Shown here: piece after piece, positions 51,241 to 58,763 of the stretch | Layout: the number at the start of each line of letters is the position of its first letter | How positions within the stretch are numbered: position 1 is the first letter of the stretch | NCBI RefSeq assembly: GCF_000428845.1 | Contig: NZ_AUAS01000008.1 | Span: 1 to 64,000, forward strand | Reading direction: 5' to 3' | Source: Dyadobacter alkalitolerans DSM 23607 | Lineage (GTDB): Bacteria; Bacteroidota; Bacteroidia; Cytophagales; Spirosomataceae | Length of the DNA: 64,000 nucleotides | The notes under the pieces: model-generated | Seen by the model: the letters and a program-made list of their open reading frames with translations, nothing else | Database searches by the model: none | What the model was told of the DNA's origin: nothing | Position numbers and translations under genes: made by a program

Positions 51241-54057
51241 TTAAAATTTGTACGTAACGCCAATGGTTGAGTAGCTTCCTCTTTTGAAGCTTTGGTATGT
51301 CTCATCTACGTCGGTAATGTTCTGGTCTTGGTTGCTATCCTGGATCAGGCGGAAACGCTGGTTAAGCAGGTCCTGGATTCCCAGCTTAATTTCAAGATGT
51401 TCTCCTAATGCTTTCACAATATTCAGGTCAATGATATTCCTTGGCATTTCGTATACTGTTGGCTGCAAATCCTTATCGCCTACCAGGAAGATCCTGCGGC
51501 CCACCACATTGTAAAGTGCGTTCACCTGCCATCCGCGGTTTACGTCATTGTAGTAAAGACCTGCATTGATCAGGTAAGGAGATTGTCCCTGTAACTGGCG
51601 GTCATTTTCCTGTCCCGCAAAGCCTGTTAATACATTACTATGGATGACAGATGCATTCAGCAACACACTCAGGTTATCCACGAATGGGGAAACGGTCAGG
51701 TTTTTAAGGGATTTGCGCAGTTCGATTTCTGCACCGGCTGTGTAAGCAGACTTTGCATTATCCACATAGAACGACACACCTGAGCCTGCGTAGCGGATAC
51801 GCGTTTCGATCGGGTTAACAAAGTGCTTGTAGAATGCTGCAACCGAGATCATTTCCCCATCTTTCGGATAGAACTCATAGCGAAGGTCAACATTCTGGAT
51901 CGAAGGCGTTTTCAGGTTCGGATTACCCACACGGGATACATCGAAGTTAAAGTCATAGTAAGTAAATGGCGCCAGTTCGCGGAACTCAGGACGGTTTACA
52001 GAAACCGAGTAGGCTAGTCTTACCAGCGATTTTTCGGTGAAGTTGTAAGCTAAGTTCGCAGAAGGAAGGAAACGGAAGATCGGGTTGTTAACACGAATGC
52101 GTGCGCCACTTCCACGCTGCCTGCTTTGCAGTTTCTGAATGTTGTTCTCAACACGCAGACCAACCGAAACATTGAATTTTTTGGTAAAAGGAATATAAGA
52201 ACCCAGATAACCTGCCATTAATGTGTTTTGCGCAGTATATTTATCATCTGTGTTGGTTCTTTCTGCATAATAAAGTTTGTCGCCAGCAATGTTCTGTGAA
52301 TCGAAAAGCTGCGCTGGTGCCTGTCCAAGCAATTCCTGAGAAGCATTACCGGAATTGGTCAGGTTAAACCATCTCGCTTTGAAAGCCCTGTCTTTAAGCT
52401 CGCCATAAGCCCCTGCACGCAATTTTATTTGCATGCTCTCGTCGTCTTCATAGCCGCTGCGTTCGATGCGGTGTTCAAGATCGGCACGGAATGAACTGGT
52501 ATATTCAGTTAATTCAGAGTAAAATCTGGCACCTCTTGTCAAGCTGGCGTTGCTTCCCGGAACAAGTTCCACCTGGAAAGGGCCAGTGCTACCGATGGAA
52601 CGGGTTGAAATAAAGCGGCGGTAATCAGGTTCGCTACGGAATGTTGTTCCCAATGCGCCAAGCCATTTCAATGTCGTATGTGCGCCCAACTCGTGGGTCC
52701 CGCCTAACTGGCCTGAGTAAATGCTCTTCGACTCGTAACGGAATGCGTAATTTTGAACTTCCACATCATTGTCTGTATTGTAACCCTGGCGGAAGTTGGT
52801 CTCTTTATTAGAAAGCTGATTGAACAGGTTTCTGAATTCGATCTTGTGATTCGGATTGATGATCAAAGCCCAGTTGGACATGACGCCCAGACGGACATTG
52901 TTTTGATACAACTCATCCTGATAAGCGCTTTGAATGTCTGATTTTTGCTTTTCCTTGTCGAAGCTCAGATAACGGAATTGCGTTGTTGGCAAAAATTGAT
53001 TTGTTGATGAATAGTTGACATTATTGAATGTTGTCAACTTCATATTTCCTAATTCAAACTTATGGTTGTAACCCAGTGAAGCGCGCAAATCAGGCGTCAC
53101 CGATTTCGATTTCAAATCATAAAATTCGGGAAGGTTACGAAATGCATTTAAAGATGCATCTGATGGAGAACCTTCGCTTTGCAATCTTTTTGTAGATGGG
53201 AAGCCGTTGGGAAGTGCTCTGTCCGGTGCACCGAAACCCGTCCAGTCCAGTGAGGAACCTGCGTAGTCAAGAACATTCTTGAACGTGGTATTTCCGCGGT
53301 AACCGCCCGTTAAGCTGAATGTAAATCCGTTGTCGTCAGGGATTGTTTTTGTATAAATTTTGATAATCCCGCCTGCAAATTCACCTGGAAGTTCAGGTGC
53401 GCCGGATTTGTAGATCATCATCCGGTCAATGGCCGTGCTGGGAATCAGATCAAATGAAAAGGATTTTACATCAACCTCTGTTGAAGGTGTGATTGCATCA
53501 TTTAACATTACGGTGTTGTAACGCTCGTTCAAACCACGGATGATCACGAAACGGTCATCCTGGATAGAAACGCCCGGCACGCGGCGCACAACTTGTGAAG
53601 CATCGCGGTCCTGCGATTTCTGGATTTGTTGGGCAGAAATACCCACGGCGATTTGCTCTGCTTGCTTAATTTCAGTGATTACAGAAACGTCGGTGAAGGA
53701 TTGACGTTGTCCTACGATCTTAACCTCTTCCAGGTTTGCCACATCTTCCTCAATAGTTGTATTAATGAGGACGGCCTGATTTGGGTAAACTTCAATCGCA
53801 ATTTCTTTCGGCTTATAAGAAACGTAGCTTACAATGACCGTCTGTTTTCCTGTGGGGATATTCTGAATGTCGAAATTTCCTTCAACATCTGTTGCCGTTC
53901 CGATCGGAGGAGTGGAGCCTTTTAAAACAACGCTGGCTCCAATGACAGCTTCTTTGGTCTTGTAATCAACAATGTTCCCCTTAATCGAACCCGTTTGGGC
54001 ATATACCAGCGTGGTAGTAAAGAGGAAAAATAAGAGAGAGGTAATTTTTAAGTTCAT
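51241..54057 (-). CDS. TonB-dependent receptor
   Basis: The second in-frame ATG, 54057, gives 938 residues and a clean signal peptide (ITSLLFFLFTTTLVYAQ). The first at 54087 overlaps the promoter box. A CarboxypepD_reg-like domain is at about 22-105 (GSIKGNIVDYKTKEAVIGASV). The plug follows with DASQVVRRVPGVSIQDDRFV and a beta-barrel ends in YSTIGVTYKF. IRGLNERYNTVMLNDAITP is typical of receptors with large ligands. It lies 63 bases before the lipoprotein gene. A TAnnTTTG box at 54085-54092 gives a 5' leader of about 22 bases. Confidence 0.94.
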   Translation of the reverse strand: MNLKITSLLFFLFTTTLVYAQTGSIKGNIVDYKTKEAVIGASVVLKGSTPPIGTATDVEGNFDIQNIPTGKQTVIVSYVSYKPKEIAIEVYPNQAVLINTTIEEDVANLEEVKIVGQRQSFTDVSVITEIKQAEQIAVGISAQQIQKSQDRDASQVVRRVPGVSIQDDRFVIIRGLNERYNTVMLNDAITPSTEVDVKSFSFDLIPSTAIDRMMIYKSGAPELPGEFAGGIIKIYTKTIPDDNGFTFSLTGGYRGNTTFKNVLDYAGSSLDWTGFGAPDRALPNGFPSTKRLQSEGSPSDASLNAFRNLPEFYDLKSKSVTPDLRASLGYNHKFELGNMKLTTFNNVNYSSTNQFLPTTQFRYLSFDKEKQKSDIQSAYQDELYQNNVRLGVMSNWALIINPNHKIEFRNLFNQLSNKETNFRQGYNTDNDVEVQNYAFRYESKSIYSGQLGGTHELGAHTTLKWLGALGTTFRSEPDYRRFISTRSIGSTGPFQVELVPGSNASLTRGARFYSELTEYTSSFRADLEHRIERSGYEDDESMQIKLRAGAYGELKDRAFKARWFNLTNSGNASQELLGQAPAQLFDSQNIAGDKLYYAERTNTDDKYTAQNTLMAGYLGSYIPFTKKFNVSVGLRVENNIQKLQSRQRGSGARIRVNNPIFRFLPSANLAYNFTEKSLVRLAYSVSVNRPEFRELAPFTYYDFNFDVSRVGNPNLKTPSIQNVDLRYEFYPKDGEMISVAAFYKHFVNPIETRIRYAGSGVSFYVDNAKSAYTAGAEIELRKSLKNLTVSPFVDNLSVLLNASVIHSNVLTGFAGQENDRQLQGQSPYLINAGLYYNDVNRGWQVNALYNVVGRRIFLVGDKDLQPTVYEMPRNIIDLNIVKALGEHLEIKLGIQDLLNQRFRLIQDSNQDQNITDVDETYQSFKRGSYSTIGVTYKF

Positions 54058-54084
54058 GTCTTGTGTCAGAATTATTTTCTGATA

Positions 54085-54092
54085 CAAAAGTA
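54085..54092 (-). promoter_or_regulatory. TAnnTTTG promoter box of the TonB receptor operon
   Basis: Minus-strand TACTTTTG matches the -7 consensus exactly and lies 27 bases before the ATG at 54057. A weak CAAT-like TTG element occurs near the expected -33 position but is not convincing. Confidence 0.5.
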
Positions 54093-54174
54093 GACTCCCA
54101 ATATTACCCCAATGTTACCCCCATGTTATGGCTCGGTTATTTCGGGGTGTGGTTTTTTGTTTAAAATCAGGGAC

Positions 54175-55665
54175 TTACTCAATAATCCCGTTTCCAATTC
54201 CTGCTTCATAATTGTCCAGGTCGTAAACAAAGCCATTGATGACAGCATACTTCACTACGGCACCTTTTTTGAGGATAAATGTGGCTGTATTGCCTAATAC
54301 CGGCGTGCCGGATGGAGCAGCTTGTCCGCTTCGCAGCACGTGCAGTGGAGTTGTTGTAAAGTACAGTCCAAGGGCGCGGGTGTTGCTGTCGGATGCAAGA
54401 CGGACGTAGGTGTAACCCTGTTTGAGCAGGCTTAATGCGTTGAGTTTGCTGACCTCGCTTACATTCTTATATGTCGTGGGATAGACCTTGCCTTTTTCAA
54501 TGGTTAATCCTTTTGCATCAATTTCTTCACTGCCGAATTGCGGGTGCAGATCACCGAAATCTTCTATTTTGCTGTAATAAAAAAACTTAGTTGCATTGGA
54601 ATAACTTACTTCATTGCGGTTAATGCCCAAATCTGCCAAAAACGATTTTCCGGATTGCTTCACCGTTGCATTCCGCACCACGAGGTCATAAACCCAGCGG
54701 CCGTTTTCAGGGATTTTATAGTAATCGTCGCGTTTTTCTTTGGTCAGGGAGTTGTCAGCGATTTTATCTAAAGCAGAAAGGATCGCCATGAAATTGAGCT
54801 TCCTGATATATTGTTTTTCAGGATCGCCTACATAGCCGCCCGATTCGATCAGTACCAATGTGGTTCCCCATTTCTGAACATTATCACCAAAGCCACGAGG
54901 TTCGTGATCGTCGGAATAGCGTGCAACCTGACCGGGAATGTATTTTTGTAAAACCTTATTCATGCCCACGATCAGCTGCATGGAACGCTCGCGAACGGGG
55001 TTGATATTTAGCTCGTAATCATAGGAAGTAGCCAGGAAAGAAATGGTCGCAACCTTGGCGCTTCTGCCAGCCGAATAGCGTGGGCTCTGGTCGTGCAAGT
55101 TGAAGCCGTAATCGGGTTTTAATTGATCCACCAAACCTTTCAGCACCACTGCTTCGGGGGTTTGACGAGAAGCGGCATCACGGTTCATGTCGATGCCCTG
55201 CATGGTGCGGCGCTGGTAACGTTCGGCGCCGTCGGGGTTGAGCATGGGAACAAAATATAATGTTGTTTTTTCGAGCAGCTCTTTCCGGAAATCGTCGAAA
55301 CCGTCATTCTTTCCTTCCAAAAAATTAAATATATCAAAGCTCGCCATGGTTGCAGTGGGCTCATCGCCATGCATTTGGGTCCATAGGAGCACTTTTCTCT
55401 TACCCGTCCCGACTTTGATCATTTGTATTGTCCTGCCCTCGAAGGATTGGCCGACGGTTTCGATTTTGTAAAGCGGGTTGCCCTGGCGCTTGGCTATGAG
55501 CGGAAGAATGTCTTTTTGTTTGAAGCGGCGCTGTGTTAATGTGGTCTCGCGGTAAGTGTCGTGCACTTTAAAAAGCCGGTTCGCCAGCTCGTCAGACTGT
55601 GCCTGGGATGTAACGGTGGTCAAGGTAATTAGAAAGAAAAATAGTTGTGAAATTATAATGCGCAT
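54175..55665 (-). CDS. M14-family zinc carboxypeptidase, exported
   Basis: The ATG at 55665 gives 496 residues and a signal peptide (IIISQLFFFLITLTTVTSQAQ). The zinc-binding HxxE appears as QMHGDEPTA, with the third ligand His in FNLHDQSPR. The catalytic Glu is in VLIESGGYVGD. The C-terminal domain after about residue 330 is beta-rich. It trims C-terminal residues of peptides, probably outside the cytoplasm. It is divergent from the his operon, so the intergenic region carries promoters for both. Confidence 0.92.
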   Translation of the reverse strand: MRIIISQLFFFLITLTTVTSQAQSDELANRLFKVHDTYRETTLTQRRFKQKDILPLIAKRQGNPLYKIETVGQSFEGRTIQMIKVGTGKRKVLLWTQMHGDEPTATMASFDIFNFLEGKNDGFDDFRKELLEKTTLYFVPMLNPDGAERYQRRTMQGIDMNRDAASRQTPEAVVLKGLVDQLKPDYGFNLHDQSPRYSAGRSAKVATISFLATSYDYELNINPVRERSMQLIVGMNKVLQKYIPGQVARYSDDHEPRGFGDNVQKWGTTLVLIESGGYVGDPEKQYIRKLNFMAILSALDKIADNSLTKEKRDDYYKIPENGRWVYDLVVRNATVKQSGKSFLADLGINRNEVSYSNATKFFYYSKIEDFGDLHPQFGSEEIDAKGLTIEKGKVYPTTYKNVSEVSKLNALSLLKQGYTYVRLASDSNTRALGLYFTTTPLHVLRSGQAAPSGTPVLGNTATFILKKGAVVKYAVINGFVYDLDNYEAGIGNGIIE

Positions 55666-55768
55666 GATCGTACAAAACCGTTTTGTAATCGCAATGTACA
55701 AGAATTTTCTAAGCAAATTTTAATTTTAATATTTGTTCCTATGCTTTCTACTTCTTGCAATTATTACT

Positions 55769-55776
55769 TACATTTG
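55769..55776 (+). promoter_or_regulatory. TAnnTTTG promoter box of the his operon
   Basis: TACATTTG is an exact match to the Bacteroidota -7 element. TTTC at 55745-55748, 20 bases upstream, could be a weak -33 element (consensus TTTG). The box ends four bases before the ATG of the histidine-rich leader peptide, so the transcript would start at or next to that ATG. Confidence 0.6.
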
Positions 55777-55779
55777 TGC

Positions 55780-55845
55780 ATGTTTAAAGCTGAAACAAAT
55801 CATCATTTTCATCAAGGCCATCTGGCTTTCGGACGTCTTGGGTGA
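55780..55845 (+). CDS. Histidine-rich leader peptide of the his operon
   Basis: This 21-codon ORF (stop TGA at 55843-55845) contains the core HHFHQGH, with His at codons 8, 9, 11 and 14. Four His in seven codons, placed just before an intrinsic terminator and the hisH gene, is the classical mark of a leader peptide whose translation senses charged tRNA-His. There is room for almost no ribosome binding site, since the promoter box ends four bases upstream, so leaderless initiation is likely. Its product probably has no other function. It is much shorter than any ordinary gene and would be missed by length cut-offs. Confidence 0.8.
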   Translation: MFKAETNHHFHQGHLAFGRLG

Positions 55846-55900
55846 TGTGTTTTTGCAAGTAGTGTTGTAATAAGGTTGAATACATAGTATCCCAGAAGCC
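55814..55900 (+). promoter_or_regulatory. His attenuator, antiterminator segments
   Basis: Three segments can pair in exclusive ways. Segment 1, AAGGCC (55814-55819), pairs with segment 2, GGCTTT (55824-55829), over a 4-base loop. Segment 2 can pair instead with segment 3, GAAGCC (55895-55900), which includes the base of the terminator's 5' arm. A ribosome stalled on His codons 8-9 (55801-55806) would cover segment 1 and free segment 2 for segment 3, blocking the terminator. With ample His the ribosome runs on and the terminator can form. The pairing was drawn by hand, not computed. Confidence 0.6.
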
Positions 55901-55927
55901 CGATTTTCAAAAATCGGGCTTTTTTTG
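55897..55927 (+). terminator. Attenuator terminator upstream of hisH
   Basis: AGCCCGATTTT (55897-55907) pairs perfectly with AAAATCGGGCT (55910-55920), with a tight CA loop that opens in practice to a few bases. Seven T (55920-55926) follow. No ordinary gene on this strand ends before it, and hisH begins 22 bases later, so its purpose is to control the his operon. Confidence 0.93.
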
Positions 55928-55948
55928 TTTTGCCTCAAATCACATTGG

Positions 55949-56539
55949 ATGAAAACAGTCATTATTAAATACAACGCAGGCAATGTGCAGTCGGTCATGT
56001 ACGCCCTCGACCGCATTGGCGCAAGTTACCTGTACACGGACGACGAGGAAGAAATCCGTTCGGCGGATAAGGTCATTTTCCCGGGTGTGGGAGAGGCCAG
56101 CACGACGATGAACTACTTGCGCAAAGTGGGCTTGGATAAAGTCATCCCGACATTAAAACAACCTTTTTTCGGAACCTGCATTGGTATGCAGCTTATGTGC
56201 CGTTTTTCGGAAGAAAACAATACCGAATGCATGGGCATTTTTGATGTGGACGTAAAGCGGTTTCCAGCCACTCCGGGATTAAAGGTGCCGCATATGGGCT
56301 GGAACAACATTACCGGCTATAAAACTCCGCTTACCACCGGTTTGCCCGACAATGCTTATGTTTACTTTGTGCACAGTTATGCCGCGCCGGTTTGTGATTA
56401 CACCGTTGCCAGCTGCGAATATGTGCTCCCGTTCAGTGCTATGCTGCATAGGGACAATTTTTATGCTGCCCAATTTCACTGTGAGATTAGCGGCGATGCC
56501 GGACAGCAGATCCTTCAAAACTTTTTAGACATCGTATAA
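55949..56539 (+). CDS. hisH: Imidazole glycerol phosphate synthase, glutaminase subunit
   Basis: Starting at 55949, this 196-residue class I glutamine amidotransferase makes ammonia for HisF. The triad is Cys77 (GTCIGMQ), His177 and Glu179 (QFHCEIS). Most HisH proteins have Pro between His and Glu; here it is Cys, a minor departure. The oxyanion-forming segment PGVGEA is present. It is the first gene after the attenuator and precedes hisA by 10 bases. The product acts with HisF at the fifth step of histidine synthesis and links it to AICAR. Confidence 0.95.
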   Translation: MKTVIIKYNAGNVQSVMYALDRIGASYLYTDDEEEIRSADKVIFPGVGEASTTMNYLRKVGLDKVIPTLKQPFFGTCIGMQLMCRFSEENNTECMGIFDVDVKRFPATPGLKVPHMGWNNITGYKTPLTTGLPDNAYVYFVHSYAAPVCDYTVASCEYVLPFSAMLHRDNFYAAQFHCEISGDAGQQILQNFLDIV

Positions 56540-56549
56540 ACCCTTTGAA

Positions 56550-57272
56550 ATGATTGAAATAATACCAGCCATTGACCTGATCGAGGGAAAGTGCGTGCGC
56601 CTTACCCAGGGCGATTACGGGCAAAAAACCATTTACAATGAAAACCCGCTCGAAGTAGCGATGCAATTTCAGGATGCCGGACTGAAACGTTTACACCTGG
56701 TGGATCTGGACGGAGCGAAAGCGAAGAAAGTGGTGAACTGGAAGGTTTTGGAAAAAATTGCATCAAAAACTTCGCTGCACGTTGATTTTGGCGGAGGTGT
56801 TCAGTCGGATGATGATCTGAAAGCGGTTTTTGAAAGTGGCGCCAAACAAGTTACCGGCGGAAGCATTGCCGTGAAAAATCCTGAGCTTTTTTTGAACTGG
56901 ATTTCCGTTTACGGGGGAGAAAAGATCATACTCGGAGCTGATGCGAAGAAAGAAAAAGTGGCGGTAAGCGGCTGGGAAGAGGGGACGGAGATCTGGGTTT
57001 ACGATTTTGTTGAGAATTATGTTGATAAAGGTGTTAAATACACGATCAGCACCGATGTGGCGAAGGATGGTTTGCTGCAAGGCCCATCGTTTGACCTATA
57101 TAAAAATTTGCAGGACAAATGTCCCGACCTGAAAATCATCGCTAGCGGAGGAATAAGTGGTTTGGAAGATGTGGAAAAGCTGGCCGAAATGAACATTTAC
57201 GGCGTGATCATCGGAAAAGCAATTTACGAAAACCGGATCAAGCTGAGCGAGTTACAGCGTTTTTTGAATTAA
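56550..57272 (+). CDS. hisA: Phosphoribosylformimino-AICAR ribotide isomerase
   Basis: This 240-residue (beta/alpha)8 isomerase converts ProFAR to PRFAR, the substrate of HisHF. Asp9 (IPAIDL) and Asp131 (ILGADAKKE) match the acid and base of the family. The phosphate loops are VDFGGGVQ and IIASGGISG. It is placed between hisH and hisF with gaps of 10 and 3 bases. Length and ends are normal. Confidence 0.96.
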   Translation: MIEIIPAIDLIEGKCVRLTQGDYGQKTIYNENPLEVAMQFQDAGLKRLHLVDLDGAKAKKVVNWKVLEKIASKTSLHVDFGGGVQSDDDLKAVFESGAKQVTGGSIAVKNPELFLNWISVYGGEKIILGADAKKEKVAVSGWEEGTEIWVYDFVENYVDKGVKYTISTDVAKDGLLQGPSFDLYKNLQDKCPDLKIIASGGISGLEDVEKLAEMNIYGVIIGKAIYENRIKLSELQRFLN

Positions 57273-57275
57273 GAT

Positions 57276-58049
57276 ATGCTAACAAAACGAATCATTCCAT
57301 GTCTGGACGTGAAGGACGGGCGGACAGTTAAGGGCGTTAATTTTGTGAACCTGCGCGACGCGGGCGACGCGGTGGAACTGGGCGCATTGTACGCGGCACA
57401 CGGCGCGGACGAGCTGGTTTATCTGGACATTACGGCTACGGTTGACGGGCGTTCCACATTCATTGACCTGGTCAGGAAAGTCGCACACACGATTAACATT
57501 CCGTTTACAGTTGGGGGAGGCATTTCTTCTATTGCGGACGTTTCCGCACTGTTGCACGCCGGGGCCGATAAGGTTTCTATTAACTCAGCGGCGGTAAAAA
57601 ATCCAGATCTCATCAACGAGCTTTCGCTGGAATTCGGAAGCCAGTGCATTGTGGTTGCGATTGACACGCGCTACATTGAAACGGAAAATGGCCGGGAGCA
57701 CATTGTGCACACACATGGCGGACGCAAGCCAACCGAACTCCGGACTATTCCATGGGCAAAAGAAGTGGAAGACCGTGGTGCTGGCGAAATTTTACTGACT
57801 TCGATGGACACCGACGGAACTAAGGCTGGTTTCGCTTTGGAGCTTACGGCCACCATCAGCGGAAATGCGAACATTCCGGTGATCGCTTCCGGTGGGGCGG
57901 GAAATATGGAGCACTTTTACGATGTTTTTACTGCCGGAAAAGCCGACGCAGGGCTGGCAGCAAGCATTTTCCACTTCCGCGAGATTGATATTCCGGATCT
58001 GAAAAAATACCTTCATGACAAAAACCTTCCTATGCGTATGACGCGCTGA
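57276..58049 (+). CDS. hisF: Imidazole glycerol phosphate synthase, cyclase subunit
   Basis: This 257-residue (beta/alpha)8 cyclase joins ammonia from HisH with PRFAR to give imidazole glycerol phosphate and AICAR. Catalytic residues are Asp11 (PCLDVKDGR) and Asp130 (VVAIDTRY). Phosphate loops are TVGGGIS and VIASGGAG. It follows hisA by three bases and precedes hisIE by 84 bases. It is the usual HisF length. Confidence 0.97.
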
Positions 58050-58133: not shown

Positions 58134-58763
58134 ATGAGCGATACTTTTTCAACTATTGATTTTAATAAATCCCCGGACGGGCTTATACCGGCTATTATTC
58201 AGGATATCAACACCAGCAAAGTGCTGATGCTCGGTTACATGAGCCAGGAAGCACTTGAAAGAACGAAGGAACTGGGGACCGTAACGTTTTTCAGCCGCAG
58301 CAAGCAAAGGCTCTGGACTAAGGGCGAAACTTCGGGCAACTTCCTTTTTGTGAACGAGATAGCCGCTGATTGCGATGGCGATACGATCCTCATAAAGGCA
58401 ACTCCGGCCGGCCCTACTTGCCACACCGGAGCAGATACATGTTTTGGGGAAAAAAATAGTCAGGATGCCCGAATCGGGGAAGCATCTTTTCTCAATTACC
58501 TGCAAAAGGAAGTGATCCGGGAAAGAAAATTAAACCCCCTCGACGAGTCTTACACCAGCAGCCTGTTCCGCAAGGGAATCAATAAAATAGCGCAAAAGGT
58601 GGGAGAAGAGGCAGTGGAAGTTGTGATAGAATCCAAGGATGACGACGCGGACCTTTTCAAAAATGAAGTATCCGATTTGCTTTTTCACCTGCTCGTCCTT
58701 TTGGAGCAAAAAAACATTGACTTAGATGAGGTAATTGGCGTACTTCGCAGCCGTCATCAATAA
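58134..58763 (+). CDS. hisIE: Bifunctional HisIE (PR-AMP cyclohydrolase/PR-ATP pyrophosphatase)
   Basis: This 209-residue fusion performs steps two and three of histidine synthesis. The N-terminal HisI domain (to about 115) carries zinc-binding Cys and Asp residues in EIAADCDGDTILIKA and PTCHTGADTCF. The C-terminal HisE domain (about 120-209) has KVGEEAVEVVIESKDDD and NEVSDLLFHLLVLLEQ with the acidic metal ligands. It ends the visible his operon: hisG, hisD, hisC and hisB are not in this window. The 84-base gap before it contains no clear terminator. Confidence 0.96.
   Translation: MSDTFSTIDFNKSPDGLIPAIIQDINTSKVLMLGYMSQEALERTKELGTVTFFSRSKQRLWTKGETSGNFLFVNEIAADCDGDTILIKATPAGPTCHTGADTCFGEKNSQDARIGEASFLNYLQKEVIRERKLNPLDESYTSSLFRKGINKIAQKVGEEAVEVVIESKDDDADLFKNEVSDLLFHLLVLLEQKNIDLDEVIGVLRSRHQ

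Follow-up and report, generated by a model that had tools for sequence, protein, structure and literature searches.

A probable histidine attenuator with a His-rich leader peptide upstream of hisH in Dyadobacter and related Bacteroidota

In the genome of Dyadobacter alkalitolerans DSM 23607, a short open reading frame (ORF) with several histidine codons is followed by a terminator and by a set of histidine biosynthesis genes. This arrangement raises the question whether expression of these genes is controlled by attenuation. The locus was analysed within positions 1 to 64,000 of contig NZ_AUAS01000008.1, a stretch of 64,000 nucleotides referred to here as the window; all features described lie on the forward strand unless stated otherwise. 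Judged from its sequence, the locus is very probably a ribosome-mediated histidine transcription attenuator.

The leader, the operon and their conservation

The leader ORF, MFKAETNHHFHQGHLAFGRLG, extends from an ATG at 55780 to a TGA at 55843-55845 (55780-55845) and comprises 21 codons, of which codons 8, 9, 11 and 14 encode histidine (starting at 55801, 55804, 55810 and 55819). An earlier sequence-only reading of this DNA had pointed out the 21-codon ORF, in which four of seven successive codons encode His, as well as the motifs AAGGCC (55814-55819), GGCTTT (55824-55829) and GAAGCC (55895-55900), all of which are confirmed on the sequence. That reading had also called an intrinsic terminator, which is indeed present, although not at 55897-55926: the 13-bp stem with its 4-nt loop occupies 55894-55923, and the terminator including its T tract covers 55894-55928. 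It was the one terminator found in a scan of positions 55600-56000, compared with 0.2 expected from shuffled sequences. Downstream follow hisH (55949-56539, TIGR01855), hisA (56550-57272, TIGR00007), hisF (57276-58049, TIGR00735) and hisIE (58134-58763, NF002747), every one of which scores above an NCBIfam cut-off, in agreement with the operon assigned before. HisH is 96% identical to the HisH proteins of Dyadobacter psychrophilus and Dyadobacter sp. CY347. Thus, two elements of ribosome-mediated attenuators, a leader ORF rich in the codon that matches the operon and a terminator before the first gene, are both present.

Elsewhere in the same genome, hisG sits after hisS, the region 5' of hisS showed no His leader, and the switch was seen only at the hisH half of the histidine pathway. 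A second hisH-like gene (L002:1501-2103, C10) encodes a protein with 44% identity to the HisH of the window. The genome also contains a RES/Xre toxin-antitoxin pair (L144:3019-3938, C2; antitoxin TIGR02293 and toxin NF049844, both above their cut-offs), which is located 3' of hisS-hisG between ORFs that resemble hisD and hisC by eye.

Conservation upstream of hisH was assessed in 80 named loci, the best of a larger set, which includes Dyadobacter, Telluribacter, Rhabdobacter, Persicitalea, Spirosoma, Larkinella, Rudanella, Siphonobacter, Flectobacillus and others. Within 450 nt 5' of hisH, 64 of these 80 best loci have a short ORF that encodes three or more His in a run of eight residues, whereas the same peptide test gave three hits among the reverse strands of the 80 loci and averaged 1.85 (largest value 3) over 20 rounds of dinucleotide shuffling. 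When at least two His codons and a linked -7 box were asked for, a leader together with a terminator was detected in 71 of the 80. By this second test no leader was detected in the remaining nine (L033, L046, which has one His codon, L047, L050, L068, L075, L076, L078 and L082). At L047, a Rudanella metagenome-assembled genome, the -7-like box TATCTTTG abuts the terminator about 50 nt before hisH with no leader in between, which may mean either that the leader was lost in nature or that the assembly is faulty. Two loci have hisH genes and leaders that do not fit their titles, since those of L065 (titled Flavobacterium sp. SUN052) resemble Rudanella (L040) and those of L070 (titled Cellulophaga sp. 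BC115SP) resemble Flectobacillus (L072); both organism labels may be wrong.

The same peptide test was applied to hisG, which was found in 291 of 345 genomes of the phylum. Sixty upstream regions were taken from these 291 genomes for their spread of family labels, among those with listed coordinates, and 53 of the 60 contained a His-rich ORF, compared with a mean of 2.15 in shuffles. Such an ORF is present in 50 of the 53 regions labelled as belonging to Dyadobacter's own family, order or class, and in three of the remaining seven regions. Within the own family, a His-rich ORF was found within 520 nt 5' of hisG in three of 30 loci. With counts this far above shuffles at both genes, the relatives strongly support the peptide-based his attenuation proposed from the window.

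For a closer view, 29 of the 80 hisH relatives with Dyadobacter-type leaders were aligned with the window (alignment A1; 30 rows, 26 of them distinct), omitting the near duplicates L028 and L030, the diverged L031 and leaders of other types. The ORF remains open in each of the 30 rows and has 16-21 codons, at least two of them for His. Codons were counted in 24 distinct rows, from which L025 and L027 were dropped (L027 carries a 1-nt gap within the aligned ORF and encodes a shorter peptide). In these 24 rows all length changes are whole codons, and differences from the window amount to 134 non-synonymous and 34 synonymous ones. The peptide drifts while the ORF and the His codons persist, which indicates that His codons and RNA are kept and the peptide is not. 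The variable sites at codon positions 1, 2 and 3 number 8, 11 and 12 of 20 in the same rows and give no codon-bias support for translation of the ORF.

Promoter spacing and the 5' end of the leader mRNA

A -7 box of the Bacteroidota sigma-A type, TACATTTG, recognised by its sequence at 55769-55776, directly precedes the leader ORF. In the 64 hisH leaders that had been picked by their peptide alone, an exact TAnnTTTG is found 3-5 nt before the ATG in 62, with spacings of 3 nt in three, 4 nt in 57 and 5 nt in two. One of the two outliers has a spacing of 22; the other, L080, lacks an exact box, the automatic test having taken another ORF there, and in this locus the variant box TAAATTTA precedes an ORF with two His codons. 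An exact box within 60 nt was found at three of the 38 window ORFs of at least 200 amino acids, at distances of 4, 17 and 27. In Flavobacterium psychrophilum the -7 box is reported to lie at -12 to -5 (PMC9723704), and given this position a spacing of 4 would put +1 on the A of the AUG. Because the box adjoins the ATG in 62 of 64 leaders, the his leader mRNA is probably leaderless, starting at or beside the A of the AUG. Leaderless mRNAs are a minority in Bacteroidota; they are given as 5.5% in F. psychrophilum (PMC9723704), and for B. thetaiotaomicron about 3.7% of 5' UTRs are put at less than 10 nt.

An attenuator could also be real without being leaderless, if transcription began at a more distant upstream site and the TAnnTTTG beside the ATG were incidental or belonged to a second promoter. 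In favour of such an arrangement, the spacing in the window, where the G of the box sits 3 nt before the ATG, is 3 and not 4, and the start site is placed from sequence alone. Moreover, an exact box is absent from 13 of the 52 hisG leaders from outside the own family and lies 6-48 nt away in the other 39, and among Trp leaders of the own family, a WW-bearing leader being present at 26 of 30 trpE loci, the spacing is 4 in just seven of the 26. Against it stand the spacing of exactly 4 in most hisH leaders and the position of the F. psychrophilum box (PMC9723704), so that a start farther upstream seems rather unlikely. The single own-family leader among the 53 phylum-wide hisG leaders has a spacing of 4, as have all three hisG leaders found in this family. 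Outside the family, the hisG leader L104 has a spacing of 4 if an earlier in-frame ATG is its start, and the tight-spacing form is therefore not strictly confined to Dyadobacter's family.

Leaders of other amino acid operons were noticed in the course of this comparison. At trpE of the own genome (L158:2473-2697, C27), a Trp-rich leader peptide (IWWW) and a terminator-like hairpin lie 5' of the gene. A leaderless start of this trp leader (TATATTTG, followed after 3 nt by an ATG) was considered and dropped, as the peptide conserved in relatives starts later; the conserved peptide is MKNYLNTIWWWRARLNKMDE, with the box 48 nt away. Likewise in the own genome (L157, C13), the short ORF MKFILIVPVLILVTR lies about 130 nt 5' of an ORF at 2800 that resembles ilvD by eye; a hairpin and a T run come after it, and it is likely a branched-chain amino acid leader peptide.

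Competing RNA structures and a model of the switch

The regulatory codons of the window are part of a protector stem, a further element of ribosome-mediated attenuators. The 5' strand of this stem A (segment 1, 55789-55804) comprises codons 4-8 and the first base of codon 9, with codons 8 and 9 encoding histidine, and its 3' strand (segment 2, GGTGATGTGTTTTTGC, 55841-55856) spans the stop codon and is common to stem A and the predicted antiterminator. In folding predictions for the window, stem A forms by nucleotide 80 with -20.9 kcal/mol. In alignment A1 it is paired in 91% of cells, with changes on both sides in one of 16 pairs; this pair shows a C-G to U-A replacement in a single row (L027), several other changes are of U-G to U-A, and one position is mismatched in 25 of the 26 distinct rows, the window having a second mismatch. 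Hairpin P1 (55814-55829), formed by AAGGCC and GGCTTT, had been recognised in the sequence-only reading and is backed by covariation, being paired in 83% of cells with three of six pairs changed on both sides; it coexists with the predicted antiterminator. Ignoring kinship and with a mis-registered terminator helix (paired in 63% of cells) included, the covariation score of the whole structure exceeded all 500 shuffles, and under these same conditions the count of double-sided changes was unremarkable (54/500). Sliding the partners by 1-3 columns lowered pairing from 80% to 34-63%, again for the whole structure with the mis-registered helix.

The predicted antiterminator pairs a 5' strand at 55829-55852 with a 3' strand at 55878-55903 (segment 3), which overlaps the 5' arm of the terminator, and encloses an inner hairpin at 55853-55870 (55853-55858 with 55865-55870). 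It is paired in 96.6% of cells, compared with 32-48% when slid, and none of its pairs is changed on both sides; its columns barely vary, and covariation therefore neither supports nor refutes it. Covariation is thus seen for stem A and for P1, the latter being one of the pairings named in the sequence-only reading. The antiterminator of that reading, GGCTTT with GAAGCC, is absent from the predicted fold, in which the stronger competitor is the pairing of codons 4-9 with 55841-55856. As the main antiterminator it was rejected, a composite built on it reaching -10.3 kcal/mol versus -26.4 kcal/mol for the predicted fold, a comparison that is not like for like because the latter value includes P1 and the inner hairpin; GGCTTT and GAAGCC can pair in 93.5% of cells.

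If RNA polymerase starts at or beside the A of the leader AUG, the 5' end could take up a ribosome as it emerges, with no need for a Shine-Dalgarno site. With ample charged tRNA-His, it would reach the stop codon and cover 55841-55856, or it would leave, in which case codons 4-9 would pair with this segment in stem A; with 55841-55856 engaged either way, no antiterminator would form, and the 13-bp terminator would end transcription before hisH. If charged tRNA-His runs short, a stall at His codons 8-9 would place the ribosome over the 5' strand of stem A. Set free in this way, 55841-55856 would pair with the spacer and with the terminator's 5' arm while the 3' arm is still to be transcribed, and the polymerase would read through into hisH-hisA-hisF-hisIE. 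Stalling at codons 8-9 had been suggested before and retains its place as the trigger in this model; the strand that it would free according to the predicted fold is 55841-55856 and not GGCTTT.

Folding of partial transcripts is consistent with such a sequence of events. When nucleotides 1-34 are masked and the RNA reaches as far as the terminator's 5' arm, the predicted fold is the antiterminator, at -26.4 kcal/mol with P1 included; a ribosome at the stop codon leaves just a weak hairpin of -1.9 kcal/mol. The complete RNA folds with terminator and stem A when no ribosome is present, and it still folds with the terminator (-36.1 kcal/mol) when nucleotides 1-34 are masked. Thermodynamics alone thus does not make the switch and timing must decide: as in attenuators generally, the antiterminator would have to act ahead of synthesis of the 3' arm. 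When no ribosome is present, the antiterminator fold is favoured at nucleotides 121-127, before the terminator is complete.

Sequestration of the terminator arm was computed over 72 hisH leaders. Its mean is 0.60 when the ribosome occupies the best His codon versus 0.27 when it occupies the stop codon, part of this difference being trivial, since a ribosome at the stop leaves less RNA free, and codons before the first His already give 0.49. The stalled value exceeds that at the stop in 70 of the 72 leaders and that without a ribosome in 57. Compared with shuffles, stalled-state sequestration is weak (9 of 72 leaders at the 5% level or below); in the window it is 0.56 versus 0.50 in shuffles, 42% of which are as high, and five Larkinella leaders (L034, L036, L039, L058 and L059) fall below their shuffles.

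Pairing was further examined in 38 of the 72 hisH leaders, one to a few per genus or sub-type, and in the 53 hisG leaders. The segment with the His codons pairs downstream better than in shuffles at hisH (combined p 1e-4) and at hisG (combined p 2.5e-24), and segment 2 pairs with both of its neighbours with a combined p of 3e-5 in the 38 leaders, although these combined values overstate certainty because the leader sequences are related. Individually, 5 of 38 hisH and 30 of 53 hisG leaders reach p of 0.05 or less for downstream pairing (window p 0.19), and for the two-neighbour score of segment 2 ten of the 38 are at or below 0.1, with a median of 0.20 and a value of 0.17 for the window alone. 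Competing pairings can be read by hand in other lineages, namely GCCTTT with AAAGGC and GGCTTCGGG with CCCGAAGCC in Persicitalea L031, and TTCTG with CAGAA and CAGAAC with GTTCTG in Larkinella L058. For L031 the two tests disagree, with p 0.01 for the two-neighbour score of segment 2 versus 0.98 for downstream pairing of the His codons. The pattern suggests that other lineages keep the same switch logic in different letters.

Between ORF and terminator lies a near-invariant block of 19 nt, TGTAATAAGGTTGAATACA (55866-55884), for which the predicted antiterminator provides a role. The own genome has one copy of it at up to two mismatches. Among 150 genomes of the family, the exact block is present in 17 of 17 genomes of the same genus and in six others, and the exact copies were placed at hisH for the window and the named loci. 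That the block might recur at other operons was considered and dropped, the exact copy occurring once per genome in 23 of the 150; the remaining matches carry one or two mismatches, and a control with the reversed pattern gives matches as well. In the Dyadobacter form, the block may in addition serve as a pause site or as a target of a trans-acting factor. A covariance model of this form scored at least 173 bits in the five same-genus genomes drawn, the own genome included, and gave some match at an E value of 0.01 in 46 of 194 genomes, the next best at 42 bits. These weak matches were not taken as further switches, since the seven loci inspected resemble, by eye, ordinary terminator hairpins.

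Several other accounts of the locus have to be weighed. Control might act on translation of hisH, with the hairpin hiding the start or ribosomes reinitiating, and in most Spirosoma and Larkinella loci examined the hairpin does end 4-7 nt before the hisH start; in the window, however, 25 nt separate it from hisH and a T tract comes after it, and hairpin and T-rich tail are kept among relatives at distances from hisH that vary up to about 180 nt (L025), which makes translational control very unlikely. Somewhat less improbable, but still unlikely, is an additional action in trans of the terminated leader RNA or its peptide, as with rnTrpL/peTrpL of Sinorhizobium: the S. meliloti trp leader, an RNA that starts with AUG, is reported to act in this way (PMC7298713), and the near-invariance of the block 3' of the ORF would suit such a role. 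The predicted antiterminator and its inner hairpin would explain the block as well, and the peptide is not conserved as a whole. Finally, terminators of the GCCCGA...TCGGGC type are common in the order, as the look of the weak covariance-model matches at the seven loci suggests, so that a His-rich ORF might lie ahead of one by chance. Conservation compared with shuffles, the fixed promoter spacing and the covariation of stem A and P1 all speak against coincidence; furthermore, the gene 5' of the leader (54175-55716 as listed) is on the opposite strand, and the terminator therefore ends no upstream gene on the forward strand. Coincidence is accordingly hardly credible, and ribosome-mediated attenuation remains the preferred reading.

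Implications and known systems

The data widen the known range of peptide-based his attenuation to include a large phylum in which promoters are unusual and Shine-Dalgarno sites are not relied on. It is tempting to speculate that such attenuation is the predominant mode of his gene control in the class (Bacteroidia) and that in Dyadobacter's own family it is tied to leaderless initiation, with promoter, start codon and switch forming one fixed unit in which a ribosome binds the bare 5' AUG as this emerges from the polymerase; we regard this wider proposal as possible, at somewhat less than even chances. If true, it would solve the problem of early coupling between transcription and translation where initiation does not depend on Shine-Dalgarno sites. 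The leaders provide a defined set for testing early ribosome-polymerase coupling, and the fixed TAnnTTTG-N4-ATG spacing makes a clear prediction on leaderless translation.

Leaderless attenuators have reportedly been described by Canestrari in 2020 as mycobacterial polycysteine sORFs, that is, in another phylum and for cysteine, and Lopatovskaya is said to have published a comparative study of attenuators in 2010. In a survey of his genes in the superphylum, the word attenuation occurs once, for enterobacteria. The trpL leader of S. meliloti shares with the present one a leader RNA that begins at the AUG of the regulatory sORF, and differs in phylum and in responding to tryptophan and not histidine (PMC7298713). 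Bacteroid-trp (RF01692) is listed as a candidate cis-regulatory RNA of Bacteroidetes named for trp, in a paper whose main text does not use the term histidine (PMC2864571); no RF01692 match was obtained up to an E value of 0.5 in 16 loci, including the trp leader of the own genome.

Closest in phylogeny is F. psychrophilum, for which strong clues for leader-peptide attenuation at amino acid operons and a structured 5' element at hisG have been reported, the latter without an Rfam match and also present in other Flavobacteriaceae (PMC9723704). The passages on these elements from the same phylum name no His peptide, hisH leader or leaderless leader (PMC9723704). The sequence-only reading had left undecided whether a Bacteroidota form was described: the Flavobacterium clues and the hisG element are in print (PMC9723704), and in the literature searched, which covered few subscription journals, no description of a hisH leader element or of leaderless his leaders in Bacteroidota was found. 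The principle is known, and the hisH element and its leaderless form appear to be undescribed.

In Firmicutes, attenuators with His leaders are reported from the B. cereus group, some Eubacteriales and Erysipelotrichales (PMC9413887). By their description, they share the peptide with His codons, the terminator, the antiterminator (a predicted one in Dyadobacter) and discovery by comparative genomics, and differ in phylum and in having three to five consecutive His codons (PMC9413887).

The classical reference is the enterobacterial his attenuator (RF00514, His_leader). No Rfam family, RF00514 and RF01692 included, matched positions 54000-58000 of the window up to an E value of 1, and no RF00514 match above the cut-off was obtained in 16 other loci; the sole match among these 16, at 36 bits (cut-off 49, E 0.04), was in a hisG leader of the same class (L107:662-767). 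With the enterobacterial system the Dyadobacter leader shares the short His-rich ORF, hairpins predicted to be mutually exclusive, a terminator and his genes downstream (PMC9413887). It differs in being located before hisH-hisA-hisF-hisIE and not before hisG, in being probably leaderless, and in a protector stem that spans the stop codon of the leader ORF.
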